NCBI GenBank assembly: GCA_031763025.1
Contig: JASSKH010000035.1
Span: 3,384,320 to 3,448,319, forward strand
Direction: 5' to 3'
DNA: 64,000 nucleotides
Source of the DNA: Macrocystis pyrifera
Lineage: Eukaryota > Sar > Phaeophyceae > Laminariales > Laminariaceae
Positions 3,196 through 64,000 of this stretch are shown one piece after another. The notes beneath the pieces are model-generated. The model ran no database searches. It saw only the letters and a program-made list of their open reading frames with translations, and was not told the DNA's origin. Position 1 is the stretch's first letter. Each line of letters begins with the position of its first letter. The position numbers and the translations under genes are program-made.

Positions 3196-3720
3196 GCGGC
3201 ATTAATGTTCAAGACAAAAACTCCATCGACGCAGCCTGGTGAACGAAACGTTCCACCGCGCCCGTATAACTTTACTGTTGTAGCTGGTACCTGGTACTTA
3301 TATAACGGACTGTTTTACACGCACGGTTACAAACAAAAAAAAGGGCAGGCGATGCAATTCTTACCGTTCCCGCATCGCGTTTTCACTTTTCTCGGACATG
3401 TCTCGTATTGATAGAGAAGGAATAGAGAAGGAACAGGGATAAAATTAGAAAACTGCACCACGACCCGTTTCACATCAAACTATTAATAAAAGGCCGTCAC
3501 CTTCACTGAAAGTCACCCCGCTCAAAAGCTGCTGATCCAAGCACACGAGGTAACGAGCGCGGCAACAAATATCGAACAAACGAAAAATGAAAACCAAAAG
3601 CATGCCACCACCTACTACTTGTACACCGGCGTTTTCAAGGCGTCGTGGCCGTTTTAGTCCAGATCCCCTCGGCAAAGCTCGCCTTTTTGAAGTACTGATG
3701 TGCTGTTGATAGCTGCTATG
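3196..3720. other. No gene recognised
   Basis: AT-rich spacer upstream of the minus-strand gene, so its promoter should lie here. I cannot point to a TATA box or other defined element. Confidence 0.4.
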
Positions 3721-4262
3721 TCATGTGCCTTCGAGGTACGTATAAAAAAGAAATAATTCACACCAACTCAAGTCGTTAATTAAATAGTAGTCACCCACCC
3801 ATACATTGTTGTGTCCTACACCGTTTCCCCCCCCAAAAAAGCAATCAATTATTTCACACTCGTGTAAATATCGTGTGCATCAGATCATAAACATAGACAA
3901 AACACACTTGTCAATTCTGCAGCTTCAGATTTTGTCTTCTTCATATACGTACGGGATGTATATCCTGCACGACGCCACGTAAACCTGTCATGCGCCTTCG
4001 ACGTACATACAAAAAAGAAATAATTCACACTAACTCAAGTCGTTCAATAAATAATAGTCACCACCCATACATTGGCATAACCTATACCGTCTCCTTCCCC
4101 CCCCCCCAAAAAATGACTTAAACGACATACTCGTGTAAATATCGTGTGCATTATATCATAAATACAGACAAAACACACTTTCGAATTCTGCACCGTCAGA
4201 TTTTGTCTTCCTCACATACGTACGGGATGTATATCCTGCACGAGGGAGGCCAAGTAAACCCC
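3721..4262. repeat. Tandem duplication, two ~260-bp units
   Basis: The segment from about 3721 (ATGTGCCTTCGAGGTACGT) to 3983 recurs from about 3988 to 4262 in the same order. Shared blocks include AAGAAATAATTCACAC, a C-run followed by A-run, CTCGTGTAAATATCGTG and ACGTACGGGATGTATATC. The copies differ at scattered bases, so the duplication is not recent. Confidence 0.85.
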
Positions 4263-4286
4263 GTAGTTCGCGCGATGGAAATATCA

Positions 4287-4397
4287 CTATTACGGGGGAC
4301 CATAGTAAATAGGACCAAATATTGTTAGTAAAAAGAGGGAAATATATAGGTTTTTGTGTATATCATAGGTCCTATTAACTATGGACCTCCGTAATAG
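4287..4397 (+). mobile_element. Palindromic MITE copy 1
   Basis: Starts CTATTACGGGGGACCATAG and ends with the inverse CTATGGACCTCCGTAATAG. The core carries AATATTGTTAGTAAAAA and ATATATAGGTTTTTGTG. About 111 bp with ~30-bp terminal inverted repeats; no coding capacity. Confidence 0.9.
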
Positions 4398-4605: not shown

Positions 4606-7438
4606 GTGGAAACTACGAGTAACTATTATTAATATTAATAGTACTTCTGTCAGTCGGGGCCCAAACCAAGCCAACCGCAAAACCACGTTTTTTTGTATTA
4701 TTTTTAAAGGCTGGCTCACTGAGGGCTCACTGAGAGATATATCACTGAGGTACTGTCCGTAGCCATACTCAACAGGTGTGCGCGGTCAAAGCTCCACAAG
4801 GTACAGGCTCCATACTCGACATCGGGATCACCGAAAAAATAAAATAGAAAAAATAAAATAAAATAAAATAAAATAAAAGGGTCACAAAGGAAATGGGCTT
4901 GCTAGAGTCCCACCGCCCTCCACAAGTGCAGCGATGATTATTTATAAGAGCGCTACGCAGTAAAACGGTAGCATACGTACGCCGTTCGCAGGTGGCTCGA
5001 TGTCATTTTATTTGTCAGCGGCTTGGGCGAGTTGTTGAGGCAGGGGCCACCTTTCGGGTGCGTCCAACTTGCTCGATTTCCCCGCCACCGCCGATATCCC
5101 TAGACAACTTTTTTTTGTTTCTTCCTGTTTTTTTTGCTCATCTCATTAATGATCTTAACGCCCTTCTTTTCTTGCTCCGTCCTATTATTAATAATAGTCG
5201 CAACTCAGAACCGAGGTCACATAGCAGGCTCCCCTCCCCTCTCCCCGCTACGGCGGTTCTTGCCTTGGCAGGCATTTTTATCGCGACAAGAAATCAGCCC
5301 TTTCTTTTCTCGTCGACTACTAGTAGCGTCGAATGGCGCTGTATCAACCACTAACCGTTCATCTTCATACGTAGCTCCTTGCAGCCAAGTTGCTTTGCAC
5401 GAGGACACGTTAGAGTATAACCACGTCAAAAGGCCTTCCAACAGTGTTCAGCTCCAAGCAGTCTTTTTGCCCGAGCATTTCAGTCGGTGTTATCTGCTGC
5501 AGCTGCTGCAGTGCATTGATGTGCTGTATGCCGCTTCAATATCTTCGGGGTCGGGCTCTTTCAGTGTGTCTATGACTACGAGCTGGTTCAAGCATACCGC
5601 CCCAAAATGATCAAGTACCTGGTATGCAATAATGTCCGATTATAAATAAAAGGCGCTTTTTGGAGAGAGACCCTGAAATTTGACTTTCGACAAACACGTG
5701 TTCCATCCCCCTCTGTAAGCCCATTACAGACACTGTTTTTTTTTTCCCGCCAGATACGTACCGTATATATACATATATATATTTGTTTTTGAAATCGTTT
5801 TTGGGATATCTGGGTCCAGATCGAAAATAAAAAATAAACAAAAAAGGTCATGTAACCTGTTGGCAGGGGTGAACAGAACACGTACGAAAAGCTTCAGGGT
5901 CTATCTTCCATCTCCAAAAAACGTCGTGGACATTTCGACATGCGTGCGGTACAGAGTGCAAAAAAAAAATAGTCGCAGCAGGGATATCAACTTTTGGCGT
6001 TAAACAAGACTAGATGTTGGTCCTACGCAGTCAGCTCCTTGGAATATTAGCGCGATTTTTTCTACGGCCATGCCTTCGAGTGTACCTGGAACCGGTTAGT
6101 TTAGCAAAAAAAGCGAAAAAAAAAAACATTTTTTTCCTACCGAATCGCCTGTAAGTTTTTTTCACCTTTTTGAAGACCTGTGACCTGTGGGTGATCGGGA
6201 CACAATTTCGTCACTGGCGTCAGCCCTAGGCCTTTGACAAACAAAACAACGGGTTACGTACGTAACCACACTCGAGTAGATATTGCGAACGGCATTCGTG
6301 GCGGACAAAATTTGGGGCGATAATACTTGAACCGGTCTGTAGTGTCAACAGGTCATCTCTTGCAAGACCATTTTGATAATCCGAAAATTTGGCCCCGACC
6401 TTTGCCTTTGCTCGGTACCAGGTACCAGGTACACAGTTTTGAGTCGGAGATCGACCGAATGAAGCTTGCTATTGTAGGAATACCGTGCGGCCTTACGCTG
6501 AGAGGCACCTGGACACCTGAACCTCTTTTCTTTTGTCCAGGGCCGTAGTTCGAAAGCTTGACGCTGTTGTCAGTTTCGAAAGAAAAAATACAAAACAGGT
6601 CATGTGTTTTTTTCAGACATGTGCTGGTGGTTCACCTGAAAATATGGAAAAACATACTGTTTTTCAGGAAAACAAGGCAAATATATGTATAAAAAAACAA
6701 CTCCGGAGTTGTTCCATCCGAAGCTAACAGCGTTAAAACTTGGAACTACGTACTTGTACGACGTAAGCCCCTGGAGAAAGAAAGAACGGGTTCAGGCGCT
6801 CTATCCGGAAGGCCGCAGGTATTCTGAGGAGAGCAAGCTTGATTCGGTCTATCTCCGACAAAAAAAACTATTAAAGCAAATTGGGGGCAATTTTATTGGG
6901 TCTGAAAGCCTGTTATACACCCGGTGAGGAGTGTCAGGTATGCAAGGTACGGGCTTGCCACAGCAGAATTCCCCGTGTATTTACACTACTGAACAGTCAG
7001 GGAGAAGGCTCGTAACCACGGCAGCAACCATTGTTCAGTATGACATCTTCATAAGTAGCGAGTTCGTTGCGCACAGTAACTGTCAGATACTGTAGACCAC
7101 CATAAAATCTACACACTGTACATACGTAGCACGTTTGATCTAACTGCTGTAAGTATCACACGCAGCTTGCAAAGAAAGATGAGGTTTCATGAAGGTTTCG
7201 ATCTCACAGCTGAGGTGTTGTGTTTTTTTAATTACAGCAGTCCTAATCGTTTACCTAGTCTGCTCGTACTCGGATACTATGGGGAGTCATACCTGGGCGG
7301 TTTTGTCGACGCTTTGCCAGAAATCAAACGACGGATCCCATATCCGACTCGGAAGGGCATATGCTACTGTACAATCGGTTCAATTTGGAGCTGTACGATA
7401 TGGAGGATGATGCCCCGTTCACTCTAAATGTACGCATG
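4606..7438. other. No gene recognised; low-complexity islands
   Basis: Contains an AAAAT repeat (about 4840-4878), several A/T homopolymers and tandem TACCAGGTA motifs (6415-6432). No open frame here has recognisable motifs or convincing splice sites. Confidence 0.5.
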
Positions 7439-11082: not shown

Positions 11083-12642
11083 GGACGTTATTACATACAT
11101 ATGGTGATTTAGATTTAGAATATGTCTCACCAAATTGCCGCACGCATTCTGAAAAGAGCGGGACCCGATTCGGTCGTTCTTCGTTCTCCGGGTCAAAAAC
11201 AGAGCACGTAAAAAGAACACATTTTCGGGTTAAATTCAATTTCCGGACCTCATCCACGGCGAGGGCTCTTTACTGCAGGAATAGAATTCGCGCGTTAATG
11301 CGTGCTCGTTCGAATAATACGTACCACAAACAAAAGGGAAGTCCAGTGTCAGTTAGTTACCTGTGTGTGTGTGTGTGTGTGTTCTTCACATTAAACCGTT
11401 CTTCTACTGTGGATGTGTACAACACTTTTTTTCTAAAGTACAAAAATACAAATATACAAAAATACGTAACTGCAAAAATATGAAAATATGAAAATACGAA
11501 ATACAAGAATACAAGAACACAAGAACACAAGAATTAAAATAATGTTCACATCATCCACACATCAACGCTGACCTTTCCCAGTGCTTGTTGTAGAAGACGC
11601 ACTTGTCCCTAATGTCCTTGTACTTTCTGTACGTGTGGCTTGCGTCTTCCATGTAGAACTTCTTTCGGGTATCTGCAGCAGCACATGCACGAGGGGACGA
11701 GGGCATCCAAACATCTGAGGGAGGGGTGCATGATGTGATGCATGTACACATACTGGCGAATCATCAATATCCGTATATTATTATGTGTTTTTTCAAGGAA
11801 GAAACTCACGATTTCAAGTTGTGCCTATATACTCTTCTATATTGAGAGAGCAGCAGTCGATCAGCAATATAGCAGCAGTTCCGAAATTGTCAAAATTGTG
11901 AAATTACCCTTTAAAAAAATGTCCGAAATTGTGAATTTGTCTCCATAAAATTGTCCGAAAAAAAATGTCGGCCCTGACGATGACCTGGTGACCTGGTACG
12001 CCGTGCATACTATAATGGACAGCAGTAGTGGAGAGTAGTGAGATGTTCTGTTGTGAGTAGGCCTGTGAGCCCCCCTTTCTTTGCTTTCTTCGCAAGGGCT
12101 AGTTATTGATATAATAGTCTGTGCCACGCTGCCACGATGATGCTGTTCGGGCTTGCAAAACTGTGATGATGGGCGCCCATTAGAAACGACAACAACGATA
12201 TGCACACCCGCTGGCACCTGGGAACGATGTGTTTGTATTGTATTGTATCGTACACGTGCACACGCATTACGCGCTGCTGCTGCTGCTGCTTATTATGATT
12301 TGCATTGCTTTTGGGTGGTACAACGCAAAAATGCTATGCGAGCTCGTGCAAACAATCAACTATTAATACTAATAGTAGGGTACGTAAGCTATTTCTGGAG
12401 CGATTACTCACAGCATAAAGCTTTCATTTCAGCAAGAGGCATCCGCGCGCGTGCCGCCCTATCGCACCAATATCGCTTCATCTACAGCAGTTGTTGTGTG
12501 CCAGGTATACCAGTATACTATACGCGTGTTCTACGACAGTCGAAAAACAGTGGTACATATCTGGTACTGCTGCTGCTGTGTGTAAGGTTATCTGGTACGT
12601 ATCGAAACATCATAACATGCATAGCCTGTACCTGGTAGGCCT
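11083..12642. other. No gene recognised; (GT)n and A-rich degenerate repeat
   Basis: (GT)10 at about 11362-11381. An A-rich degenerate repeat (units like ACAAGAATACAAGAAC) spans about 11440-11535. A CTG run lies near 12275-12290. No exon is supported. Confidence 0.5.
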
Positions 12643-13290
12643 CTACGAGCGTACCAGGGTACGAGTACCAGGTATCAGGTATCTGCGAGAACCCGCTGCG
12701 GTACCCGGTGCGCACCCCTTGCGCTCACCGTGCAGGGTCGTCCGGCCCATCATGTCGTGAGTCAAGTCCTTGTGCAGTTCTTGGCCCTTATCCTGAGAAA
12801 GGAACTTCAGCATACCAGGGGCTGCAACGTCTCGCATGCAGACCGAGGACTCCCTCGTCCTCCCCGCTCTAGACAGTCCGTCCCCGGCTTGGGTCACCGC
12901 AGACCCTGCGTAGAAGTTGGCCGGAGACTGGTAAAAAACCAGGGACGTCTTCGAAATGTCTCCCTCCTTGGGGAAAATTTTTGACGCCCTAGCGAGAACC
13001 CAATCGAGGCTTGGAGAGTCATCGAGGACGAGGGACGCTGTGTTGTTCGTGACTTGGTGCACTTGGTCCATGGTGTGTGGACGAGTCCTCGCGGACAAGG
13101 TATACCGATGCGTGGAAGGGAGTGGTGACCCCCGTCTCTCTGCTCTTTTTGAAAGTTTCAACGCCCCCTTCGCATAAAGCACCTTGCTTTTCAGCGAAAC
13201 CCCGTCCTGCCTCGTGCGACCTCGGTGCTCAGCAGGCCTTATATATCCTTGCTGGCTTATCCCCCTGAGGTTCAACAGTACCCAGTACAC
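12643..13290 (-). CDS. Uncertain open reading frame, unrecognised
   Basis: A 215-codon open stretch. An internal Met at about 13072 (MDQVHQVTNNTASLVLDD) is a plausible start. It has moderately hydrophobic and charged segments but no motif I recognise, and the last ~40 codons overlap TACC.GGTA-type repeats, so they are unlikely to be protein. It could be a decayed transposon gene, a retained exon or chance. Confidence 0.25.
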   Translation of the reverse strand: MYWVLLNLRGISQQGYIRPAEHRGRTRQDGVSLKSKVLYAKGALKLSKRAERRGSPLPSTHRYTLSARTRPHTMDQVHQVTNNTASLVLDDSPSLDWVLARASKIFPKEGDISKTSLVFYQSPANFYAGSAVTQAGDGLSRAGRTRESSVCMRDVAAPGMLKFLSQDKGQELHKDLTHDMMGRTTLHGERKGCAPGTAAGSRRYLIPGTRTLVRS

Positions 13291-14096: not shown

Positions 14097-15010
14097 ATAC
14101 GCAGTACTACGTATATTGATATATCATACGTATTCGTATAGCACCACGTTTCAATCAACCCCGCAGAGTTTAAGGGGAGTCGGGGGGGGGGGGGCGAAGT
14201 GGTTGCATCATAAAAAATGCATCACGAGTCACCCCGTGATAGACGACATGCCTGAAACAGCATGGGTATGTGTTACTTTCAGTACCTACCTACAGCAAAG
14301 ATGTCAGGAGACAGCACTTTCACCCCCTGACAGACAGCAACTTTGCCTTGACATACCTTGACTGACACCAAATTACGAGTTTTTTAAGAACAAAAGGCCC
14401 TACACCCTTGTTAGCGCACGCTTTGCCTTGCTTGACAGGGCCTCTTGACACCATTGACCTGCTGTATACAGCAACAGGGCGTACCTGGTACCAGTATGTC
14501 ATTGCAAGATCGATCGATTACCCAGCCCAGGGTAAAGCCCTATACCCCCCGTCGTCACCCCCCCCCTCGGATCGGCGGCTTCCATGGGACGTGTCGATTG
14601 ATAGACCTCTCCGCTTACGGTCGTACCAGGTACGTGTCGACGTGCCTACCCGAGTTCGTTCTGATTCCTGGGGACCCAGGGAGACACGTTTTGTTTGGAC
14701 GCACGTGCAAGCGAGTCTGTAAAAGAAACGTTCAAAGTGAGATTGGAACATTCGAATGTTAAGGTGTCCTGCCGACGACGTCAAATGTGAGGGTGTTGTC
14801 AGAGTTTACCTGCGGAGCTACCCGGGGCCAAATTTCAATCGATTACCCGACCGAGGGTGGTACGCCTTACCAGTGTTACCAGTGGTTGTTCGCTTGAATA
14901 GGCGCACTACTCAAGACAAGCGACAAACAAGCTGTGACACCCTTTTCGCGTTGTTCCGCTGCAAACACGCTAAATACATGCCTGTACTTGTACCGGTATG
15001 TGACACCCGT
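14097..15010. other. Upstream region of the ADAL-like gene; no exon assigned
   Basis: If the family's usual short N-terminus (a few residues ahead of the HxH motif) is on its own exon, it should lie here. I could not identify it. Two TACCWGGTA motifs occur at 14485 and 14625. Confidence 0.35.
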
Positions 15011-15016
15011 ATGCAG

Positions 15017-18000
15017 CTACACGCCCACCTACACGGGTGCATAAGGCCGGAGACGGTGCGGGACCTCGCCGCCGCGAACGGAATCGATATGTCGCCAGAA
15101 CAGCACAGGGCCCTAGCGCCGGGGGGCGACAGGAGCTTGTCCGACTGCTTCAACCTATTCGATGCCATTCACTCGTGAGTGTGCGCACACGGTTACTTCG
15201 TACCTGGTGTTGTTGATACTGCTGTACGACCACCGTGGCGGGCTGAAGCCGCACTCACAACGCCCAAGCTGCCCTCGCAACGACCCCGTAAGCGGCGTAC
15301 ATTGTACGGTACAAGATGGCGCCATCGCATCGTCGTGCCCCCCTAATCGAGTCATCTAAATCATGTACGTATGCGTCGACATCAATATTATACTTGATAG
15401 ATGTGGTTTTTCTCTGCAGTTCATTCAGGCTGTTGTCACCCGAAGTCGCATTCTTCCCGTGATCTCTCGTCTCTTTAGCGCGCTTCGAGGCGAAGGATTG
15501 CGTGGCACCCTTTGTGGAGCCTGCAGTCACTACATACTTGATTGAGGCTGATAGAGGCTGTACGGCACAAATCCAAGAAACATTCCCTTTTAATAATACG
15601 TTGGGCTTGCTGCTCCCCCCGCCAAAAACAAAAAAATTGAACACCAAGTACGAATGTATACTACTTATTTTTTGCTGCCAACAGTTCTGGTTGTCGTCTG
15701 CTGCAGGCATGTATTTGTGTTTCTCTGCGTGCTTGTCACCTAGAACTTGTTGTCTGCTATGGAACAACATGGTTTGTCCGGGTGCTGAGCTCTGGGCCGT
15801 CGCTTCAGACGACTGACACGGTGTGTTCAGGCGATCTATCGCCAGGACAGCGCAAAAGCCCCGGACAATTAAAAGAACTTAAGACACCCATATACCTGGC
15901 TGCAGCCACCTGGAGAAGGTCATTGAAACAATAAAATGGCCGGGGGATGGCGAACAACTAGCAACGCCTCCTATCTCTCTTCAAGAGCGCCTGGCAGCCA
16001 TTTCATGTGACTCTTGAGTGAGAGCGCATGGCAGCCAATCCATGAGGCTCTGAGCAAGAATGCACGGCAGCCAGATCATGTGGCTGTGAGCAAAAGCGCA
16101 TGGCAGCCAATTCATGTGGCTCTGAGCAACTTTACCTTGAATGCTACCAACAACCAGAGTAGCTTGTTATTGTTCATGTTGTTCATGTTGCAGCGTGTGA
16201 AACGCGCAGGCGGTCTAATTATGAAGCCCTGCGCTCGCATACAACGATTGGTGCTTGGGGAGAAGGAAAGGGTAAAAAGGTCATCTGTGTTTCTCCCTGC
16301 TGAAGTGCCCATATCGTTAGCTGGTCCTGTCTGCGGCTACCTTTGTCTTTCCTAGACGTGCTCTTTTAGCGGCTTCGTCTAGTTGGATGCACTCAAACCG
16401 TTTCGGCCAAAACACCAGACGCTCGCTTTCACGCCGCATTCATTCTGTTTTCGCACGCGCGCGCTATACCACTAACTCTAACCGACTGCGTATGTGTGTC
16501 CATTTTTACATCAATATATTTGTCTGTCTCGTAGACATCTCAAGAGAGTGGTCTTTTGCGAGGCGAATAACAAACATGTCCCGATATCGTTTGTCGTGTG
16601 ATCTGAGCGCCTCGAAGGATATTTTTTGGTCGTTTCGCTCCGTGCAGCGCGCGGCAAGCCGAAAGGACCACGCAGCCCTCAGGACGTTGTAAAGTTGGCA
16701 AGACGGTGGTACACAGCCCTTAGGACCCGTCCGGGGCACTTGTTACCGTTGCACGGACGACGTATGGGAGTTTCGAAGCATGCTTTGCTCGACCCCTCTC
16801 TCCGCCAGCAAGAAACTTGCTTCCGGTACATGTCAGACTGATCCTTTAGGACGCGTCAAGGCCTTTTAGCCTCAATGTACTAGCTTTAGCGTACGGTGGC
16901 GGTCAGTCAAGGGATCAAACTGCAATATCCTAGCATAATTGACTACTAATAGCAGTGACACGGTAGATGTACATTTCAATCGACATCGACATCAACACTC
17001 AAATTCCCTCTATAAAAAATCCTCTCTCGCTGCCCCCCCCGTCCACCCGCCGTCCCAACAGAGTAGTTTCTGGCCTACCAGCAGTGCGAAGGATTGTACT
17101 GGAGGCGCGCTCCAAGACATGAGGAGGCACAATGTCCGCTACGCCGAACTCCGGACGACCCCCACGCCCATTAACAGACGGCGTGAGCCGACGAGAGTAC
17201 ATCGAGCACGTGCTCCGAGCTTTTCGGGAGTTCGAGACGATCAGGCGTGCTTTCCTTGCGAGGTTAGCGATGGTACGTGTAGGCCACGCCACGGTGAGGG
17301 CACCGACAAGGGACTGCCCAGGCTCATTCCCCGGCTGCTCCTGAGCGTCGACAGAGGGAAAAGCGTGCAAGAGGCCATGGCGGTTGCCGAGCTTGCCGTG
17401 CAGCTTCGAACAGAAGAAGAGTGGAGACCGTACGTCATCGGAGTTGACTTCAGCGGCAACCCTACGAAAGGCTCATTCGAAGAGTTCAGGTCAGGATTGC
17501 AAGAATGCGTGGGCAGTGCACAGCAGCAAGGTTTTCTTCGAGACTCGAACCTTTCCCGTGAATTTAGCACATCCATGTTCTTTGTTTCGCGTCAGACCGC
17601 TCCTCCCACCGACCCGCCCACTTGTTATGCTCTCGCCTTCAGGCCAGCGTTCGAGTTGGCGCGACGCGGTGGAATGAAAGTGACGGTGCACTGCGGCGAG
17701 GTTCCAGACGGCCCCGATTTTCTGGCGGTCATCGCCTTTAGGCCGGAACGATTGGGGCACGCGGTTGTCCTCAGCGAAGAGGTGCGGGAGGCGCTGCTGT
17801 CTGAAATGCCGCGCATTCCCATCGAGGTGTGCCCGACGTCAAACCTTCTTACCCTGGCCTTGTCTGATCACAGCGAACACCCCACCGTACAGGACTGGAT
17901 TCGTGAAGGGTGAGTGACCTGGAAGGGAGGAAAAGGGGGGAGTGAAGGCGGACGCCGTGAGGGGCAGGTCCATGCTGAGCTGGGGTCTCACTTGTGATAA

Positions 18001-19966: not shown

Positions 19967-20291
19967 TTTTTTCTTTTAAATCGTCACTTTCACTTTCCAG
20001 GTTAACTCGTAGGAGGTTTTATCCTCAGCGGTCTTCTTCGGGACAAGCCATGGATACAGGTGTCGTCCCTTTTGCCCCCCAGTATGTGCCTTCATTTGTA
20101 TCGCGCATAGGGTTCAACATTCCCACTGCTCGTCGATTTTCATCGAATGTTGCTAACCCACGCTTTCGCGCCTTCCGCTATTAATAATCGATTTGTATGC
20201 AAGAAAAAGTCCTTTCGAGTATGCACTCGGTGAGACTTGAACCCACGAAATTGATCTTGGTGGGCACGCAGACCACCTACTAAGACACCGG
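19967..20291 (-). mobile_element. tRNA-derived SINE copy 2
   Basis: Full-length minus-strand copy with the same order of blocks as copy 1: T-rich tail, TTTCCAG.TTAACTCGTAGG, CTCAGCGGTCTTC, GGTGTCGTCCC, TGCTCGTCGATTTTCATC, then the tRNA-like head (GGTGAGACTTGAACCCACG, inverse B-box; ACCACCTACTAAG, inverse A-box). Confidence 0.85.
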
Positions 20292-36117: not shown

Positions 36118-36424
36118 GGGCGGTGGCTTGGTAGGTGGTCCGCGAGCCTATCAAGATCAATTTCGTGAGTTCGAGTCTCACCGAGTGCATGCTCATAGGG
36201 ACTTTTTCTTGCATAAAATTGATTAGCGGAAAGCGCGAGAGCGTGAGTTAGCTGTACATTCGATGAAAATCGACGAGCATTGGGAATGCTGAACCCTATG
36301 CGCGATAAAAACTAAAGGCACGTACCGGGGGGGAGAAGGGACGACACCTGTGACCACGGCTTGTCCAGAAGATCGTCGAGGGTAAAACCTCCTACGAGTG
36401 GGCTGGAAAGTAAAAGTGATGATG

Positions 36425-44600: not shown

Positions 44601-47600
44601 CGGCGAAAAAAATGGCGAGGTTTTATCCCTATCCTGACCTTGGCTTTGGCCCTTGTCTGACTCGTGCCCCGACGAATCGGCCGCTCCGATGCGTGCCCAA
44701 AGCGGAGGCGACAATGGAAACAGCGAACCCCCAGCAACACCAGCAACCCCAGAAGCGACCCCACTAGCACCAGCACCGGCGCCACCAGCGGAGGAGGCGT
44801 TATTGGCACTTGCGCCTGGATTCTGGGTGAAGCAAAGGCGGCACGCGGTCACCGCGTGGTCGACAATGACGGTAGACGTGGAGATCACCCCCCGTCGCTC
44901 GCATCGCCCCCCCCCGCCCCCCCCCTCTGGCGACGGTGTCCATCACCAGCTCGTGCGCGGCGGCGAAGCCCTGCAAGCGTTTTGTGCGGGGGAGGGGGGG
45001 GGGGGGGGGGGGGGAGGGCGGGGGCTTGAGCGTGGGGGCGCGGGTACTCCTTTGTTGCTTGCATAGTCATTTGACCATTGACCACGCATCTCTTCCGAGA
45101 CGGAGCACTATTCCTACTCCAAACAGAGACACCTCCAACAATTGGGCGCTCATTACGTAGTTTCCACGTCTTGGAACATTTTGCTAATCGTATCCTGTTC
45201 CTGGCTTGCCGCCAGTGGTCACCATCTATCTTCAAGGGTAGCGATCGTTTTCTCGCTGTTATTTAGCGTACCAGACTTCTCCATGTCACATTCCTCTATT
45301 TTCCTCATCTCCTCTCACATCTCGTTCCTCCTTGTGCATGTCAAATTCTCCCACTATGTGACTTCTATTATTCATTGCTTTTCCACAAGGGCGCACCTGG
45401 GCCTCTACTTCCTCCTTCTTCCGGCTACTACACTATTACGGGGGTCCGTAGTTAATAGGATCTATGGTATACATAAAAGCCTATATATTTACCTATTTTT
45501 ACTAACAAAATTTGGTCCTATTTACCATGGACCCCCCGTAATAGTATACCTCTTTCTTATTTCTGGCAGGTCCAGGTCCCCTACATGAAATCGCAGTTTT
45601 CAGCGCTTTTGTCAACGTCCATTGGGCCGTGCAGATACGTTTTCGTTTCTTACTTTTTCTTAAACCGTCGTATGTCTCGGAGGGCTTCTCCATTTTTACT
45701 TACCAGGTATTCCTTAGCGCTAGCCTTTCATTTATTTCTACCTTTTAGTTTACTTCCGTCCTGTACCCCTCAAACTTCTCCATGGACAGCATCTCTTCTT
45801 CGTTTCTCCTATATCCTTCCACACTGCATCGACTACACCATCCCACCTCATTCCGCCATCTAGATGCTTTCTCTCAGCCCCATCAGCTTTTCTTTGGCTG
45901 GCAACCACTATGTTGGCATGTTCCTTACTTTATATTGCCTTTTCAACGTTCTCACGTCTCCCTTTGTCTCCATTGGGTACATTCCCAGCTCTGCTCTTGA
46001 TACTGCATTACTAATCGTGCTTGAGCATCCTACTGGAGTACTCTTTGTTGCTGCTGTCCGCCATCTGTACTGTTCCCAAATGTTTCACGAACTTCGGGTT
46101 CCCTTCCTGTACTTGTCACGCACATTCTAGCTTTGGTACAATCACATCCATCAGGACACATACCTTGATCCTAGTGTCAAGGTGCGAGTGTTTTACGACC
46201 GCTTGCATCTTCCTTACGTGTGCTGGGGGGGGGGGGCGTACTCATTTGTTTCCTGCCTTTTTCATTCCACCATTGAGCATTGACCACGCACTTCTTTGGG
46301 GACGGCGCATCGTGCCTACTTCTCATAGAGACACCTCAAACAGCAGTTGGCAGCTCATTACGTGGCTCAGGGGCTGATCAAAGTATCCGGTAAGATATGC
46401 TAAGCCGTTGGGTGAGGTTAGGTTAGCCCTCTCTCTAGCGGTGCAAACAAAATGCTAGTTCGGGGGACCATAGTAAACAGGACCAAATATTGTCATTAAA
46501 AAAAGGGAAATATATAGGTTTTTGTGTGTACCGTAGGTCCTATTTACTATGGTCCCCCGTGAATAGATGTGCATCTGTTTTCCATGCAAGATCATCGGAT
46601 AGCAACTGCTGTAACCTGCCCTCTGGATACGGGAATGCAACTGCACTGCTGTAAACACGCCTCTGATTGTGACCGGACTTTTTTCGCGCTCAGCATTCCA
46701 CCAAAAACGGTAGCATGACGGCCGGCTGTAACGCTGAGCAAGGTGCACCGACACTTCTCGTGTCCCGTTAGCGTGCTACTACTCGAGATTCGACACGTAT
46801 CATTGCTACCTTGCTCAGATCAAACCCGACCACGCAAGTCGACGATGAAAGGAAGTGCAGCACCCTTCTCGCGATAAAAACGCCAGCCAAGGCACATACC
46901 GTAGCGGGGAGGAGCAAGTAGAGCCTATGATACTACTACTGCTTTGTGACCCCGGGTCTGACCTACTTTAGACTATGGAGGGAGAAGGAGACGAAAGGGC
47001 GAACACGATACTCTGGGGTGGACGGAAAATAAAAAAAACAAGAACTATGCACCCTTGAAACGTGGTTAATCTAACCGCGCCAAGCACTCACCCCCCCAGC
47101 ACCGAGACGTACGGAAAGCCTCGCTTCATGAAGAACAGGGCGCACGTGTTGACGTAGCTGTACTCGTCCCGAGCTGCCTTTTGGCTCCCCATCCCCCGGC
47201 CATTCTTAGTCCCCAACCCCCTCGCCCGCATGTGGCCGTCTCCGCTGCCCACGAGGCACACGTGTGCACGCCTTCTAAGGGGCTCAAAAACCGGCATGAT
47301 CGACTGCGTATAGGCGCGCAGGCGGCGATACAAGAGCAAAACATATTAGAAAAAAAAACGTTAGAAAACCCTAAGCTGTGTGTGAGAAGAGATCGACAAA
47401 TTCCTCAAAACTCACGTTTGAAAGCTTGGTGTCATATTTCGATCGCAACAAAATATTCAGCCAAGTCAAAACAAAACCCGGGAGAAGGCGCAAAAAAAAA
47501 AAGAAAAAAAAAAAAGATAGGAGCCGTGGCTCCGGAGGGTGGGATGGTCTGCGGAACGCTCTGCAGCTTTGTGGTAACTATAGGCGAGGTCGTAGCGTGG

Positions 47601-50600
47601 AGCATCTTTGTGGTAGGCGGATGCCAAGGCTCTTCCGCAGCAGCAGCTTAAAAGTGCAGCCCATTCTCCTACAGTAGCTCGCTCCACTGCTACTGTATCA
47701 ACAATATTTCTACTTACAGCAATTACGGGGGGGTCCGTACGAAGTAAATAGGACCAAGTATTGTTGGTAAAAAAAGGGAAATATATAGGTTTTTGTGTGT
47801 ACCGTAGGTCCCATTTACCATGGTCCCCCGTAGTAGCTCTCCCACTGTAGTAGCTTCCGTCCGACAGTAGAGTAGCTCGGCTACGGCAGTCCCCTGCAGC
47901 AGCTCTGCTACAAAATGTAGTTTTGCAGCAGCGCCGATGCCGCATCACGTGGTAGATCCACTTAAAACAGCCCCACAATAATAGCTTTTCTACAATAGCT
48001 CTGGCAACAATCGCTTTTCATTACACCGGTAACTACTACAACAGCAATTGCGCCACTACAGCAGTACGTTTGCTATTACGGGGGTCCACAGTTAATAGGA
48101 CCTATGGTATACATAAAAACCTACCAGGTATACATTTACCAATTTTTTACAAACAAAATTTGGTCCCGTTAACTATGGACCCCCGTAATAGAGTGTTGTT
48201 GTACCAAGTGAAACAAACAGCCCTGAAACAATAGCTCCTCTTATCAACAGTAGCTCTTCCATACCCGTGACCAACAGCTGTAGCACCACTTCATACTACA
48301 GCAGCAGTAGCATTGCTATTACTAGAGTCTTGTAGTACCGAGTAAACAGTCCTGAAACGCATACCTGGTATAATAGCTCTTCTTTACACCCGTAACTCTA
48401 CTACAATAGCAGTAGCTTTGCTACCGTGCTGTGGCACAGGTAAAACCAACAACCCTGAAACAATAGCCCTTCTACAATAGCTCTGTGAACAATAGCTAAA
48501 GCTGTAGGGCTACTCACAGTAGCTTCGCTCGAGTATGAGTGTTGTTTGTACCAAGCATGACAAACAGCCCAGAGACAATAGCTCTATCAACAATAGCTCC
48601 ACTATCAATACAACAGCAGTAGCTTTGCTACACTGTTGCAATACCAGGTACGAGGCACAACAGTAGACTTACTGCAGCTCTACAATAGCAATAGGCTTAC
48701 CTCCGCCATTTCCTCGGGATTGTCCATGGCGGACGGGTCCAGGTGAAAGGCCGTTGGGAAGCGACCGGCGTCAACCTGAGCGGAGGTGGACATGGAGGTG
48801 GAGATGGCGGGGGTTGAAAAACAAAAAAGGGAAGAGAGTACAGTATTGTGAAAACTGCTGCTGGTGCTGCTCAATGCTACTATTAATAGGTATCAGCCTT
48901 GCCGTGAATACTGTCCCCACCGCCGTACTTTCCTTTATATACCTGGAAACTATCGAGAGACCACACGGGCAGAGTGCTACCAAGCCCCCAGACACACGAA
49001 GTACACAAACAAATGCATATCTGGTACTCCGTAAAGCCTATATAGCCTATAGCCCAATCACGGTACGATGTTGCTTGATCCAACCACCACCCGTAGAACC
49101 TGGAAACAAGCAGAGCCATCCCCGCCCAATTGAAAAAGCTGCCCTTGCGCACGCACGCACCATACGCTACCCCCCCCCCCCCTCCCCCCCCTCCGCCCCC
49201 TGTTCGTGTAAGCCTTGACGGACAACTCCATCAACCGAACTCGGAGAAGAGCGGCTTTGAGCTATACAGAGTCTTATCCTTCATTCCTTCTTTCCTTGCT
49301 TGCTTAGGGGTCGAAAGGCGAAGCACTCCGCCCCTGAGTCTCCCTCCCGCCCCAGATTTCACGCGTGCATCTTGTTCGCCCCCCTTCCCACATCAGCACC
49401 CCGATCCCACCAGACACGCCTCCAAGCCCACCCCCCCCCCCCCCTCCCCTCCCCCCCATCCACTATTACGGCCGGACGCACAGTAGTAATCAGAACCGAA
49501 ATATTGTGTGTGAACATACGGGATACATGTTCTTTGGGTTCATCGTGATTTCTGATTACTGACAAGTAGTGTGTCCCCGAAACAGGACAGGACTGCAGTG
49601 TGCCCTATAACGGGGGACCATAGTAAATAGGACCAAATATTGTTAGCAAATATAGGTAAATATGTAGGTTTTTATGTACACCGTAGGTCCTATTAACTAT
49701 GGACCCCCGTGTTAAGAGGGTCAGTACTTGGCCCTGCTTGGAAAAAATGGTCGATAATCTACACCAACTCCTCCTTACATCAACCATCTTCGTTCCGACA
49801 ATTTTCCCGGGCGGTCGGGGCGGGGGTTATATACTCAGGGTCAGGGTTGTTGTTGGAAGTAAAAAAAAATATTTCAAACCTCCGAGAGATCGTGTACAGA
49901 TCATGTACAGATCATCTCCAGATCATCGATTCCAACTGCATTATCTAGAGCTTTCAGGTCAAATAGACATGATCTGTATGATCTGTACGATCTAGCTCCT
50001 GTTGCCGGGTGGGAGCCGTATACTCTGCGTGATCTAGGACATGTTTCCTGGGTTGGATCTGTACTACACAGATTCTGCGCAACACCTCATAACGGCCGGT
50101 AACGATCTAGATCATCTACCCGTAGGTGATCTATCTGCAGATGATCTATCTGTAGGTGATCTATCTGTAGATGACCTATCTGTACATGATCTGACGATCT
50201 GTACATGATCTATCTGAGGTGCGGAATATTTCAACCATTTTGTCGAAGGTATTATAGAAGCCAATTCAAAATACACGGCAATACATTGTCATACGAATGC
50301 GGCCATGCATAGCATGAGTCCACTACACACTGCTGCACCCCCACGTCGTCCCGACTGTGACCATGCACGAAATGAGTACTCCCACCCCCCCCCCCCCCGC
50401 CCCACCGCCACCCCTCTTCCAGTCACCAACACTACTCTCGTGCATGCATGCCATCGGCGTCTCACCCCCCCCCATGCATGAGATCGGGTACATCTCTCCT
50501 ATCGAGCACACCCCCCCTCCCCAGGCTGTGTACTCACCTGCGCCTTGGGTCGACAATCCACCACAAAGAAAAACAGGGGCTGCCTCTGCCTGAAGAGTCC

Positions 50601-53600: not shown

Positions 53601-56600
53601 ATTCTCCCGTGCCGCCTGCATCTACCACGACCTTCCGAGCGCGCGCTCGAACCATCGCCTGGGGTGTGTGTGTGATGGAACACACACGCAAAGAAAAGCA
53701 CGGTTCCGTGCGGTGGGACGTTGACGTTGGTGCGAAAAGGAACAGGGTGAGCTGGCAGCTTTGGCGAGGAGAAGAGAAGGGAAATAAAAAAAGGGGGGGT
53801 GGGGCACGGTCGAGTTTTGGGGAAACGACCGATCTCACCGCAAACACAAACTGTGACTACTGTACACAGGCCATGTATGATCCACACAGCAACGCAACTG
53901 AAGAAGAAAAAAAAAAAAAAACGACCACCAAAATAAAAAAGAGAGCAACGCACAGACCATCTTGATACGCACGGACGACATCTCAATACGCGTGCAATGC
54001 TGGCAATATTCGCCGTTTCACTTTCGCTTTCGCTGCGGGCTCCAGCTAGCGTCAACGCCAATGGAGGTCAACTGATATTACATGGCCAAAAGTCCCGACG
54101 GCAAAGACACTGGAAGCACGTCTGCCGACGTTTTTTTCCCGAGGACATTTCGTTTTTCTGCTCAACCCCGACCGTTCCTTTCGAGCCAGAATTTGAGCAG
54201 ACCGGATACGAGCTCCTTGGTGTACGTACTCCCGTGAGTATGCCAAAGCGATGACGGCACTTTTCGTGTCCTCCTTCGGGGCGGACCTCGTCGCTCAAGT
54301 TTGAAAATGTGGTTCCAGGCGCTTGAATTTTTGGTTTCTTCTACTGTGGCCAAGTATTTTTTTTTCTGCTGTAGAACGAGCAGGAGGGACCCAGACGTCG
54401 TAACGAGTACGTTCCTCCTTCTCGTTTTTGAGCAGAAAAAAAAATACTTGGCTACAGTACAAGAAACCAAAAATTCAAGCGCCTGGAACCACATTTTCAA
54501 ACTTCAGCGACGAGGTCCGCCCCGAAGCAGGACACGAAGAGTGCTGTCCTCGCTTTGGCGCACTCACGGGAGTACGTACACCAAGGAGCTCATATCCGGT
54601 CTGCTCAAATTCTGGCTCGAAAGGAACGGTCGGGGTTGAGCAGAAAAACGAAATGTCCTCGGGAAAAAAACGTCGGCAGACGTGCTTCCAGTGTCTTTGC
54701 CGTCGGGCCTTATTTTGTGTTTCGTGGGCAGTGCAACACAGGTGGGTAGCCCCCCAACACCCCACCCTAACCCAAACCCCATCCCCAACCCCAACCCCAA
54801 CCCTGGGAGCTCCAATGGCATGTCCGAATCTCACACTGATCCGTCACATCACCTCGTGCTCCGCCTCGGCAATCTCGCCGATAAGCCCGAGGTGGTGTCG
54901 AAACGATTCCGGGGTCGCCAAATCCCCAGCGCCTCCGCCTCCTCGCACCACAAAACCAGGGGAGATTTCGATACCACCCCCGCCATATTGCCGTCACCCT
55001 TCCCACCTTCGCAGGTTAGGAGAGTGGCCATCTGGGCGGGGGAAAGGGTTTCCGCCAGAAGGAGGCGCAGGTGCGGTCCGGTCGCGGCCAGCAGCTCATC
55101 TCGACGGCGCAGCAAAGCAGCAATGAGCAAAAAGAACCTGCACGAGAAAACGCGACACCACAAAATGTCCGCCGGTCAGCCCGCCGTGGACGGGCACAGC
55201 AGGGGGGGAGGGTGTACTCATTTCATGCATGGCCGTAGTCGTATGACCATAGACCCCCGCATCCAACCAGCCAATCGAAAGAGGAACAGAAGAGACGCAA
55301 CACTGGAGCGACCCAAGGCGGACAGGACGGAAGAGAGCACGAGCACAACCCGCGACAACCGGGACAGCAACAACCAGTCCGAGCAAAGCATTTCAGACGA
55401 ACCGCGAGTATCCGCACAACTCCCGGGCCAGCACAGCACACAGCAAACAGCCAGCATCTTCATGGGCTACAGTATTACTACAAAGTGCAATGTCGGGACA
55501 GGGGGGGGTTAAGGAGGACTAGCAAAGGGTGGTTTTAGAAGTAAATGACTACTACGGGGGACCATAGTAAATAGGACCGAATATTGTTGGAAAAAAATAG
55601 GAAAATATATAGTTTTTTGTGTGCACTGTAGGTCCTATTTACTATGGTCCTCCGTAAAAAGAAAGCGGCACCACTATGGGGAACCATAGTAAATAGGAAC
55701 CAATATTGTTAGTAAAAATGTAATTATATACCAGGTAGGTTTTTGTGTGCACCGCAGGTCCTATTTACTATGGTCCCCCGTGATAGCATCTATCACTGCT
55801 GTGGCCGGCAACATAGTCCCCGTTTGATGCACAGATACGTACGTACATATCAGACTAACCCCAATGCATGCAATACAGCGGTATGATTAACCCTTTGCAA
55901 TACAGCGGTATGATTAACCCTTTGGCCACTGCGAAAAAAAGCATCGTATGCATACTTATGCATACCATAATTTCAAGTAACTTTTCCCCAAAACGGGGTT
56001 TCAGTTGTAAAGCATTAGTATTGCGGGGTGTGTTTACTATCTGATAGGGTATACCAACTTGTCCCTACAAATACGTATCATTTGTATATCAATAGTTAAT
56101 CCAAACAACCCTTATATAATGGGACTGAGTGGTATACTCTGGGGGGACCAAAGGGTACATACCCAGAGTCAAAAACAAACAAAAATATACCTGGGTACCC
56201 CGGAGACTATATATGCATTACGGTGTGTTATCTCTGTGTCGTAGTCTGTGACCACAGAGCTCGTATCTTTCTAGGGTGAAGAATCAGCACGGACACCGGG
56301 CTTGCTGGATGTCGACGAATAGAAGAACGGTTTAATGTGAAGACCACACACATATATAACCTTGTACTGGTAAGCACACCCTGCTAGGCCTGGAAATGGA
56401 TTCGTTTCAGTGCGTACAAAAAAAAAAAAAAAGAATGTCGCATGGTCGAGATCTGGGGGGGGGAAAGTTCAGTAAATCAACCAATCCTTGATGGGGGAGA
56501 AAAAAAAAAAACGTTGCCACCAAAAAAACACAAAAAAAAAAACTGTTCGATGATGCTGCCTCTCAAAAATACAATAAAAAGCTGCGCGGGGGTCGACGTC

Positions 56601-59600
56601 GCGGCGTTGAGCTACGAGCTGCACAAAAGCCAGCCTTGCTGCTATAGCACAAAGCGCGCTGCAGGTCAGCGCATAACCAAGCCTAGAGGGTAGATCAGCA
56701 GCGTAGACACGGACGCGCGAGCGTGAGTGAATCGCGCGTTCCTGGCGGCCCGTTGGGAATAGCGGCCGGCAGCACGAGAATGCTTCCCCCCCCCCGTGTG
56801 AAACATATCTAGTACAGATCAAGTCGCAGGCTACGCGGTCCTATTAATAGTTTACTGCTATGTGTTGGGCACGACGCATAAACGGCAAGAAAAACATACC
56901 CACAGACAGCCATCGACAATCGGCGACATGTTGCTATATGTACTGCACTTCCCCGAGACCGGGACTTCGACTGCGCTGCCCGCACCGCCGTGGAAGCGCG
57001 CCCCACCTCTAGCCCACAGGCAAGTTGTTGCTGTGCATGCAGCTAGCTGGGCGTGAGCCTTGCGGCCAAGGCCGCATTCACTACGCGCCTGAAGTTCTCC
57101 ATGGTGCTGTTGTACGTACTCGTACCTACCTCTTACTACCACTCTGTCCGGAAATGTAACGAACCGTTTATCTTCACATTTATACTTGAACCCCCCCCAT
57201 ATTTCCGGACATAGTGGCACGGTAGGGGATTTTTACTCGGTCGTTTTTTTTACGTGAGACAGCAGTGATTCGTTCGCATCTCAAAGCTAGGGGTGACCCG
57301 CTTCCCGCTGCATCAAGGCCCGATCACAGATGGCCTTCGCTGCGGCGGTGGCACCGGGTGTGATGGCAATCGCTCGGCGTGCGGTCGCGTTCATGTCTGG
57401 CTGCAGTGGCAAGCACCGTTTGCCCGATAAAACGAAGACTGGACGTCCTTGTTTTTTCCTTCTTCATCTCGGGATATTTTTTCTCGACTTTCTCATCAAG
57501 AATTGACTCATCAAGAGAGGGTCACAACCCATGGAGCAAATTTCTTGTCGGCTACTTGTCGGATTCAAGCGCAAGTTGCATTGCTGTGTGCACAAAGTCC
57601 TACGAATAGCAGAGGGGATGGCACGTATCGATTACATATTAATATCAAATAGTACTTCCCTACGTACAGAGAAAATACGAATATAACATGAAAAAAAGAA
57701 CTTTCGGCATATTTCCAATCGGATAGACGAAAAAAAAAAAACCAGATCAATTCATAGCCAGCTATCCCCTCTTTCTCCATTGATTGGACGTGTCCGTCGA
57801 ATGCACTCATTCCAATTCGTTTCCTGTGTAGAGCAATCAGGTATTCGCTGCAATCGTGAATGTACTCTAAAACCAAGAAATTAGGGTGGTGGCAAGCTAT
57901 GATAAAAATGTATATATATATGTATGAGCGGTTTGGCGAATAGACTCTGGACATTCTTCTACGTCTTAAAACGAATCAATTCCCAGGCCTACCTGCCTGC
58001 TATTACGGGGGTCTATAGTTAACGGGACCTATGGCATACATAAAAAGCTACATATTTAGGCATTTTTACTAACAATATTTGGTCCTGTTTACTATGGTCC
58101 CCCGTAATATTAAAACTATTAATAGTGCCGATTTCGGTGGTTTCGATTATCTGTCGTTTCCGTTAAAACACGCCGTTCATGGAACCGTAAATCGATATCG
58201 AAAACATCGATGGCATGCCTTGCTTTGCTTTGCTTTGCTTTGCTTGTGCACCAGCGATGAAACGAAAAAAAAAAAACATGAACCCTCTTGCCCTCCACAT
58301 ATAGCCATTTCTATCGTACTACAGTAGGTAGCCATCAACATCACGCCCATGAATGTGATGAGCAGAGGGCAGGGTGGTAAAGCACGTCTATTAAAAAAAC
58401 CCACGTCCGAGATACGCAACCCGTCTCAAGCACGCTTCCTGCCTCCAAAAATTACGCCGATGCATGCCCGAATATAAAACCACGTCCCCCTCCACCACCC
58501 CTGCCTCCCCCTCATCCCTTGTCCTCTGGATCGACGCATGCTGCTCTTAACTCTTACCTGGTAGTGCTCTAACCGCTGCACAAACTATCGAGGTCTCCTC
58601 CGATCAAGTTCCTCCCGAGATCGAGGCGCATTTGCAACGGGGTCAACTCTCCCTCTCTCGATAAGAACGCTGCATTGAGAATTTTCGATAAAAACGCCTA
58701 ATTGAGAACACTCGATGAAGAACGTTCGGTAAGAGCGCTCGATACGAACGCTCGATGAGGACGCTAGATAAAAACGCGTGCTCTTCAAAAGAACGCTCGA
58801 TAAAAAATGCGCTATAAGAACGCTCAACAAAGACGCTCTATAAAAAGGCTCGATACGAACGTTCCAATAAAAACGCTCTATTAAAAACACTTGATAAGCG
58901 CGCTCGATAAGAAAGCCTTAGAAGAACGCTGCAAAAGAGCGCATGCTCCCCGTAACAACGCGTAAAATAAGAAAACTCCAAAGCTCAATGAACAAAAAGC
59001 TCAATAAGAAAGCCCGGACAAGAACCCTCCACTAAAAACCACCACTCTCTCACCCGAAGTGCTTGTCGTGCCGAATGAGCAGATAGTCCCACAGAGGAAG
59101 CAGACAGCCCAGGGGAGCCGAGGCGCCCAGCCCCGCATTCGCGGCGACAAGCAACGACGGCTCCACAACGCCCTGCCCCTGGCCCTGCCCTTGCCCCGCG
59201 CGCCCCTCCGCCTCAACACCGTCGACCCCTGCTGCCGCCACCGCCGTCGTCGTTGACGCTGTCGCCGCGTGGGCGGAAGCGGGACTCCCCACGGAGAGGC
59301 GTCGCATCTGGAGGGACGGCGGGAGGGACGATTCGAGGTCGTCCACCATCGCGGCGGCTTCCTGGTCGAGGGCACTGGTCTCCGCGCGCGAAACGCTCGC
59401 CGCCGGAAGAGGCATTTCCCACCCGGGAAGCATCTGGAGCAGGGGGGGGAGAGGGGAGAGATGAAAACGTAGAAACGGCGGTAGACGAGAGGCCAAGGGC
59501 AAGGTTAAGTTGACGGAGACCGGCTACCTACGGTAACAAAGAGTGCCCGGCACACTCAGCGGGTAGGCAGTAAAACTCAGGGCAAACGACAACTCAACAA

Positions 59601-62679: not shown

Positions 62680-64000
62680 CTCTGCTGGAAGCTAGCGCTT
62701 CCCCAGCCCAAGACCAAGGCGAGGAGCCGGAGCCAAGTACCTCCTGCCAAAAGAGCCCACCTGGTATGTGATGATGCTCGGAACAGGGGCTCAAATTGAT
62801 GACGGGTCGTATTCTTGGATTCTTCAAACCTCCAAACACTCGGAAGGGTCAGAGGTAGAGGCTGGCAAAACCAGCGCACCAAGGAGAGGATCCTCCTCTC
62901 CAGCTAACGGGCACAGCCTCGTTCCAACGTGAGGAGAGAAGCCGCAGAGACAAGAGTGTACAACCTAGGCAAAAGCCTGAACTTTATCAAAGCCAAGACG
63001 ACCTTATCTCTAGAAACCCCGGGAATTCCGAATATATTTCCCCGCTGTATTTTGCAGGAGTATCCACAGGTCGTCTTTTTTTTTGTTTTTGTGTCACGCA
63101 AAGCGTACCTCCCTACATGTCCCCAGCAAGCAGTGAATCATGCCACACGACACACAGCGGGAAACCACGGAAAGCAGCACCAGCAGCACTAGCAGCAAGT
63201 ATATACCTGGTACGAATGTTTGAGAACCACTCTATATGGTGTCGTGATAGGCTCGCCCCTAGAACATCATCTCCCCAGAGTTCGTCGCTGTTGCATGATG
63301 TTGTGGCAAAAACTACTTGGAATTAGACTCCGATATCTTTGGTATAAGTGCAACCTAACTGGCAGTTTGCGCACGACCTGGGGCAGCAGACCAGTGCTGC
63401 GCGGCGCAATGCCTGCTGTAATACAACTGCTGTACGTACTTACTTGTAATTCCACTACTTATTGCTGTTTGTTGTTGTTCTATATCTGATTCAGTATACA
63501 TATACCCTCTGACAGCAAGCTACCCTGTCTGTGTGGAGTTCTTCTGACGTAAAATTTTCGTCAGACATGTTTGTGTCAGTCCAAACAAACGGATATAGCA
63601 ACCGCCGCGCAGAGCAGCACGGACAGACAGATTGATGAGTCGCGGCATTATACGGTACGGTAGTTCTGTGTACGAGTACCGGTTGATTGTTGTTGTTGTT
63701 GTTGTTGTTGTCTTCACATCAAAATTTAAATCGTCGTTTCTATGTAGCCTCATCAGCACACCCAGTATAGTCAGTGTCCGTCCTAATTCCTCACCCTAGA
63801 CTTCTGTGGTCACAAACTGTGAGACAGAAGAAGACCAAAAACAGGTAGGTATCGATTTTACGATTTTCATTTTACGTTGTCAACTTCCCCCGCGTAGTGA
63901 GGGACGGGGGGGGGGGGGTGCTATCATTATTATTGTTGTTGTTTGGGTTTTTTTCCACTTCCTATTTATGTTCGTTCCAGGTATATGTATATAATAATAT
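62680..64000. other. Upstream of the TBC1D23-like gene; no other gene recognised
   Basis: Should contain the promoter and 5' UTR of the minus-strand gene. Contains one TACCTGGTA (63206) and a (GTT)8 tract (63690-63712). Short open frames lack motifs. Confidence 0.4.

Follow-up and report, generated by a model that had tools for sequence, protein, structure and literature searches.

What is the 9-bp word TACC(A/T)GGTA, written TACCWGGTA below, and how did it come to be so common in the genome of the kelp Macrocystis pyrifera? The question was raised by a 64,000-nucleotide stretch of that genome ("the window"; positions 3384320 to 3448319 of contig JASSKH010000035.1, assembly GCA_031763025.1, our contig C216), in which an earlier note had picked out about 22 exact copies by eye and had proposed that the word is left behind by a Tc1/mariner-like transposon that targets TA. 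We found that TACCWGGTA arises as an insertion that turns TA into TA-CCWGG-TA, that is, 5 bp and a duplicated TA. We consider it probable that a TA-targeting transposon of the Tc1/mariner type, with CC..GG ends, left this insertion as a footprint of its excision, the excision itself being a step that we infer.

The window contains 23 exact copies, 14 of TACCAGGTA and 9 of TACCTGGTA on the + strand; both A and T centers are therefore present, a result that the strand symmetry of the word yields trivially. Chance predicts 0.36 copies (100 dinucleotide shuffles, of which the largest gave 2) or 0.5 (Markov model), so that the word is enriched ~45- to 65-fold. The list made by eye, which had put the excess at about 40-fold over some 0.5 expected, thus proved sound: 21 of its 22 coordinates fell within 3 bp of a copy, the copy placed at 42816 lies at 42805, and only the copy at 1141 had been missed. 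When repeats were masked, TACCAGGTA was the top TA-flanked word of the window (19 observed versus 0.39 expected). The assembly is described as 537 Mb in 223 contigs with 50.37% GC (PMC10498591). Across the 537,376,219 bases in 223 contigs that we counted, TACCWGGTA occurs 121,279 times and the reversed word 2,421 times, a difference of ~50-fold. Most further comparisons were made in a 304-kb sample consisting of the window and 24 stretches of 10 kb, every one from contig C216; it holds 91 copies and a single reversed word, with a density among stretches of 0 to 9 copies per 10 kb (mean, 2.8; variance, 5.4).

The copies in the window are exact matches on the + strand and are given below. Four of them lie within members of a family of miniature inverted-repeat transposable elements (MITEs), and for these the number of matches to sister copies with TA only at that place is stated; a MITE copy that served as an empty-site control is included.

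1141-1149, +, TACCAGGTA, absent from the earlier list
3288-3296, +, TACCTGGTA
4286-4397, +, copy of the MITE family TA-TTACGGGGG...CCCCCGTAA-TA, empty-site control
5616-5624, +, TACCTGGTA
6416-6431, +, overlapping pair TACCAGGTACCAGGTA, with starts at 6416 and 6423
12629-12637, +, TACCTGGTA, clustered with the variants TACCAGGGTA (12652) and TATCAGGTA (12673)
12666-12674, +, TACCAGGTA
14482-14490, +, TACCTGGTA
14624-14632, +, TACCAGGTA
21719-21727, +, TACCAGGTA
25751-25759, +, TACCAGGTA
33415-33423, +, TACCTGGTA
33570-33578, +, TACCTGGTA
34671-34679, +, TACCAGGTA in the MITE at 34581-34703, MITE site 2; TA only in 13 of 18 sister matches
42805-42813, +, TACCAGGTA in the MITE at 42752-42868, central TA (site 1); TA only in 22 of 37 sister matches
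43884-43892, +, TACCAGGTA
45701-45709, +, TACCAGGTA; its single repeat match (72% identity) has TTG there, not TA
48122-48130, +, TACCAGGTA in the MITE at 48073-48191, site 1; TA only in 19 of 40 sister matches; this MITE is on the minus strand, and in its orientation the word is TACCTGGTA
48362-48370, +, TACCTGGTA
48642-48650, +, TACCAGGTA
55729-55737, +, TACCAGGTA in the MITE at 55670-55788, site 1; TA only in 16 of 38 sister matches
58555-58563, +, TACCTGGTA
63204-63212, +, TACCTGGTA, at the edge of a rejected 782-bp candidate element (see below)

Comparison of sister repeats revealed how the word arises. We called a site testable when the word lies in a repeat with a sister match that spans it, and 8 of the 91 sampled sites qualified. 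TA-only sisters were present at six of these eight, and at none did full-length sisters outnumber TA-only ones. Among the control TA-N5-TA sites, 241 of 1,069 were testable; none had a TA-only sister, and the full length was kept in sisters at 218 (Fisher P = 9e-11 for 6/8 versus 0/241). Further controls gave TA-only sisters at 1 of 252 TA-N4-TA sites, 1 of 216 TA-N6-TA sites, and 5 of 150 TA-N3-TA sites, although the last five may include other scars. Insertion at TA with duplication of the TA, which is a feature of Tc1/mariner footprints, is seen both in this comparison and in the insertions carried by the MITE family.

The MITE consensus has the ends C-TA-TTACGGGGG...CCCCCGTAA-TA-G (TA-TTACGG...CCGTAA-TA). 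We aligned 19 full or partial copies in the window and 43 in the 304 kb, from which we extrapolate ~76,000 genome-wide; the copies diverge 11% from the consensus (mean identity, 89%). Alignment of the 43 copies (41 of them long) to the consensus yielded 11 insertions of at least 4 bp, 10 of which can be placed at a TA (by eye). Six are CCWGG plus TA (one decayed), two are TA-CGG-TA at one site, one can be written as TA-CCA-TA, and one is TA-CAG-TA, of the Sleeping Beauty type, in a copy (L025:380) for which 24 sister matches have TA only; the remaining insertion, TTAC, is not clearly of the TA type. The four MITE cases that the earlier note described, with an extra CCAGGTA at a TA intact in sisters, are real (34671, 42805, 48122, and 55729), and each has the form TA to TA-CCWGG-TA that the note gave. 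Its statement that two of the four share a site was right about the sharing and wrong about the number: three interrupt one central TA, and 34671 lies at another, which reads TAGGTCC-TA-TTAACTA in the consensus. None of the five carrier copies has another carrier among its five closest relatives; since the carriers are not nearest relatives, the insertions look like independent events, as had been claimed. The sixth positive site, L021:6975, is in a different repeat, where alignments are weaker and three of six sister matches have TA.

The sequence around the insertions revealed a two-sided target preference. In 54 of 180 half-sites (30%), a further TA stands at +6 on the outer side of the inserted TA, compared with 279 of 2,112 (13.2%) for other TA-N5-TA words (P = 2e-8) and 7.1% for all TAs, and the difference persists when nested copies are excluded (26.7% versus 11.2%; P = 8e-8); half-sites come in pairs and are not fully independent, so that these P values are rough. 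One nested case is the pair at 6416 and 6423, where a TA belonging to one insertion appears to have received another. In addition, A at +1 is depleted beside the inserted TA (13 of 182, with 33.8 expected), and a TA stands at +6 on both sides at 11 of 90 sampled sites. For TANNNNNTACCWGGTANNNNNTA, the projected number genome-wide is ~600 at the all-TA background and ~15,000 if the sample rate holds. Of the two TAs hit within the MITE, one fits this preference better than any other TA of the element (5 of 6 features) and the second scores 3 of 6; the preference had been learnt in part from the same sites. TA at +6 is near 10% for TAC(A/T)GTA and for two other abundant words, TATTAATA and TACAGCAGTA, described below.

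Altered forms of the word are also in excess. Copies one step from TACCWGGTA exceed chance mainly through transitions (69 versus 19.5 expected), with a smaller excess of transversions (57 versus 36.5). Summed across 8 positions, the one-mismatch excess amounts to 0.79 for each exact copy, or ~10% per site by rough reckoning; decay of the word is roughly similar to the 11% divergence of the MITE copies, as for unselected relics. The 5-bp form dominates and is near uniform, and 4- and 6-bp forms are minor: CCGG occurs 16 times versus 3.8 expected, TACCAGTA/TACTGGTA 27 times versus 12.8, and CCWGGG/CCCWGG 6 times versus 1.0. The 4-bp forms have the TA at +6 in 6 of 32 cases for TACCGGTA (P = 0.007) and in 15 of 80 for the whole class (P = 3.5e-5), against 5.4% for the TA-N4-TA control, and the CCWGGG class has it in 4 of 12, against a control of 7.5% (P = 0.01). 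Such minor length variants are expected of imperfect joining after excision. Forms with C or G at the center are 9 times rarer than A/T-centered ones (10 versus 91) yet 5.8-fold above expectation.

If the word is a footprint, a cut-and-paste element would have inserted at TA and duplicated it; on excision, the transposase would cut within the element ends and leave a few terminal bases attached to the neighboring DNA on each side, and repair by end joining would give TA-CCWGG-TA. Two cutting schemes could produce the 5 bp. In the first, reasoned by analogy with the CAG of Sleeping Beauty, 5-base CCAGG overhangs would self-anneal and the central A:A mismatch would be resolved to A or T. In the second, the element would have the ends CCA...TGG, and three bases (CCA) of one end would be joined to two (GG) of the other, as in the inferred scars of Stowaway elements; the 4-bp CCGG form would then be a 2+2 join. 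If a few very mobile copies each left one scar per conservative jump, many scars and few elements would result. The past presence of the element, its ends, the cutting scheme, and these dynamics are what we infer from the scars. The transposon may survive in very few copies, each of extreme mobility, and be seen almost only through this log of scars, a view to which we give more weight than to a 7-bp word that is itself mobile.

The MITE family offered a partial internal control for the footprint reading. A Tc1-type scar that keeps 2 bases of each MITE end predicts the footprint TA-TT-AA-TA, which is TATTAATA, and this word is abundant: with repeats masked, it is among the top words of the window (15 versus 0.78 expected), and genome-wide it occurs 94,130 times, compared with 7,522 for the reversed word. 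The 17 copies in the window are preceded by C in 10 cases and followed by G in 8 (by eye), as is common just outside MITE insertions. They start at the following positions.

3481, 4627, 4633, 5186, 8716, 10590, 10685, 12361, 20179, TATTAATA
33791, 41465, 41852, 48881, 52800, 56842, 57637, 58117, TATTAATA, continued
20179-20186, +, TATTAATA as an insertion of 6 bp; plain TA in two sister repeats (33827-34025 and 36127-36328, minus strand)

Element and scar are similar in number here, with 43 MITE copies and 66 of TATTAATA in the 304 kb, in contrast to CCWGG, with its 91 scars and an element that was not found. Retained bases match an element's terminal bases only for this pair, and a TA-only sister supports it at one of six testable TATTAATA sites. 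The footprint reading of the earlier note has the prediction from the MITE ends in its favor and the scarcity of TA-only sisters of TATTAATA against it. Outside the kelp assembly, a MITE-like copy, up to ~85% identical, is present in GTDB contig JALZVY010000272.1 (L001, 7676-7797), part of a bacterial metagenome-assembled genome labelled Phycisphaera, where it is probably algal contamination. A search of viral contigs for the MITE pattern gave no match.

A third TA-bounded word, TACAGCAGTA/TACTGCTGTA, occurs in the window at the positions below, and TACAGCAGTA has 59,709 copies genome-wide versus 1,062 of its reversed form.

10574, 15217, 19407, 30465, 32167, 35725, 37331, 43026, 48057, 52997, TACAGCAGTA/TACTGCTGTA

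It is at most a candidate for a further scar: neither of its two testable sites had a TA-only sister, and some copies are in tandem repeats. TACGTA and TAC(A/T)GTA were rejected as scars of equal rank, with enrichments of only 2.3- and 2.2-fold.

We searched for the source element in several ways. In the 304 kb we found no full-length element with CC..GG ends and, in particular, no intact one that combines CCWGG ends with inverted repeats to match, and inverted-repeat pairs adjoining TACCWGG in the window gave no source element. When 129 one-sided ends from the 304 kb were cross-compared, the groups viewed in context were also alike before the TA or were like a short interspersed nuclear element (SINE), with the exception of one weak 26-bp pair (L011/L026). 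Among TA-anchored 15-bp inverted repeats within 1.5 kb, none of the four clusters starting with CC begins CCWGG, and the multicopy family is the known MITE. Pairing of ends up to 9 kb apart with one mismatch allowed gave 15 pairs with at least 12 of 20 matches, versus 4 and 6 in controls; 9 of the 15 (by eye) have TA inside both ends and are scars, and the remaining 6 equal the controls. In a boundary test, 4 of 126 ends had a boundary near TA, of which 3 lie in the SINE-like repeat and the fourth was dropped. A 782-bp candidate at 63202-63985, with an apparent inverted-repeat partner ending at 63985, was rejected because its left end matches the genome once, at itself. Ends starting CCAGGT, as expected of a Mos1-like mariner element, formed no family in the 304-kb sample. 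The SINE-like repeat (L008 at 8677, L012 at 1772, L017 at 9144, L024 at 3521, and the window at 14667) has a stretch resembling a tRNA B box (by eye), and CCTGGGGAACCAGGGAGAT is present in the three copies inspected.

At the protein level, the DDE_1 transposase domain, which we take to belong to the pogo/Tigger group, has 39 matches genome-wide, and no link from these to TACCWGGTA was shown. Six 3.5-kb loci (L032 to L037) with DDE_1 genes contain, within that length, no TA inverted repeats acceptable as element ends, and we set these genes aside as the source. Since five of these loci resemble one another almost from edge to edge, their element ends lie outside them. The genes are stop-free, with five ~98 to 99% alike and L032 ~72%, and L036 has a match below threshold to a Tc5-type helix-turn-helix; these loci are possibly a recently active pogo/Tigger-like family.

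Several results weigh against the footprint reading. The main one is the missing source: the earlier note had asked for full-length elements with CC(A/T)GG ends, and the failure to find any in a 304-kb sample holding 91 footprints counts against the footprint part of its proposal; the TA-duplicating insertion that it also proposed is supported by the enrichment over the reversed word, the aligned gaps, and the carriers, which are not nearest relatives. DDE_3 had no match in the genome search, and neither had Transposase_1, so that no mariner transposase was detected, although the control genomes were silent there too. Five of the six empty-site cases come from a single MITE family, and the other two testable sites (L027:3448 and 45701 in the window) have no TA-only sister, with one or two weak matches each. 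Five of the six testable TATTAATA sites also have none, nor has TACAGCAGTA at either of its sites. The P values for target preference are loosened by the pairing of half-sites; the TA at +6 is weak in one-transition copies (26 of 138, or 18.8%; P = 0.045 against a matched control) and is found in only 1 of 20 cases for the center-C/G class. Finally, the kelp scar is more uniform than rice excisions, of which 8 of 94 are reported in one account to have left the duplicated target only, the others having deletions or filler (PMC4423477).

Of the rival explanations, direct insertion of 7 bp (CCWGG and a duplicated TA) survives best, although we regard it as unlikely. No larger element would then be needed, and the word itself would be a mobile unit with more than 120,000 copies, made for example by a recombinase or by repair that attaches a short CCWGG stub where a TA has been nicked. 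The earlier note had named such a process, inserting 5 bp at TA, as its alternative. The failure to find a source beside 91 copies, the dominance of one uniform word, the TA specificity, and the preference for further TAs 6 bp out all suit it. The variants of other lengths that share this preference and the precedent of the MITE ends for TATTAATA, in contrast, are predictions of end joining, and we know of no process that inserts CCWGG directly at TA.

Spread within larger repeats, such as satellites or MITE subfamilies, would give many copies from few events. On contig C1, the first occurrences listed recur at intervals of ~400 and ~1200 bp, a pattern typical of tandem arrays, and some copies probably do lie in such arrays. 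However, only 4 of 23 copies in the window and 8 of 91 in the sample have alignable flanks that span the word, and the carrier MITEs on contig C216 have no other carrier among their five nearest copies, so that we judge this explanation very unlikely for the word at large. A selected regulatory or structural site, bound by protein as a palindrome, seems slightly less probable still: the word is a near-palindrome and ~50-fold enriched genome-wide, but in repeats it appears as a 7-bp insertion absent from sisters and scattered among MITE copies, its one-step excess consists mainly of transitions, and its divergence is about that of the MITE copies. An artifact of composition or low complexity, assembly, or library can be dismissed with near certainty, even though CCWGG is a common restriction and methylation site, because the reversed word is 50 times rarer, center-C/G forms are 9 times rarer, alignment with sisters puts the word at a single defined position, and there are more one-step copies than chance predicts.

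The window has other features that we note in passing. A palindrome at 54090-54711 has arms of 301 bp that are 95% complementary around a 20-bp loop, and there are tandem repeats at 30010-30361 (30-bp unit), 42164-42341 (36 bp), and 15982-16129 (36 bp). A reading frame for an adenosine deaminase at 16939-17913 has its nearest named relatives in the brown algae Ectocarpus, Hapterophycus, Pylaiella, Scytosiphon, and Ascophyllum; its best match of all is 81% identical.

Work on excision scars usually proceeds one locus at a time, and the scars can be messy; in this kelp genome a single probable scar word has 121,279 exact copies, alongside the abundant words TATTAATA and TACAGCAGTA, and its target preference and decay can be measured. 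If the footprint reading is true, it would explain a large part of the variation by small insertions in the MITE family examined, in which 10 of 11 insertions of at least 4 bp are assignable to a TA. If the source is found, a single assembly would allow the jumps of one transposon lineage to be counted and dated, footprint-to-element ratios could be compared among kelps, and the chemistry of cutting and joining could be read from the scars.

Excision footprints as a kind are already known; what is new here is their scale, their uniformity, and the missing source. In literature searches that left subscription papers mostly outside their scope, we found no report of more than 100,000 near-uniform footprints without a visible source, and in a string search only CCAGGTA, of three strings, appeared among the matches listed. 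Ectocarpus is described as having 17 Mariner-Tc1 families, with most copies nonautonomous, and the main text of that survey of transposable elements does not use the words footprint or excision (PMC12477816). Published passages on the superfamily describe excision by nicks 2 to 3 nucleotides inside the ends, leaving 3' overhangs that are resolved by end joining (PMC7827188, PMC2642840), with a scar made of the overhangs (PMC7827188); Passer is stated to retain 0 to 4 terminal bp (PMC9976928).

Set beside individual systems, the kelp word resembles the Sleeping Beauty scar, given as TAC(A/T)GTA (PMC3432063), in being a short near-palindrome with an A/T center between duplicated TAs (PMC3432063, PMC7827188). 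The Sleeping Beauty scar, however, is a 3-bp CWG from 3-nucleotide overhangs, whereas the kelp scar is a 5-bp CCWGG, and the Sleeping Beauty word itself is only 2.2-fold enriched in our sample (103 versus 47.0 expected). Mos1 shares the TA target and has a 5' inverted terminal repeat that starts CCAGG, after TA in the oligonucleotide described (PMC2642840, PMC3419177); the letters therefore have a place in this superfamily, although the shared CCAGG may be chance, and the 5' break of Mos1 lies 2 or 3 nucleotides inside, unlike the 5 bp of the kelp scar. Stowaway and Osmar5 likewise leave pieces of inverted repeat within duplicated TAs, in several forms and with one TA reused (PMC1925063). They differ in that the grass element still occupies some sites, whereas none with matching ends was found in the 304 kb of kelp, and one form dominates in the kelp. 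The scars inferred for Stowaway retain 2 to 4 bp at one TA and 1 to 2 bp at the other, and a 3+2 join, which would give the 5 bp of the kelp scar, falls inside that range (PMC1925063).

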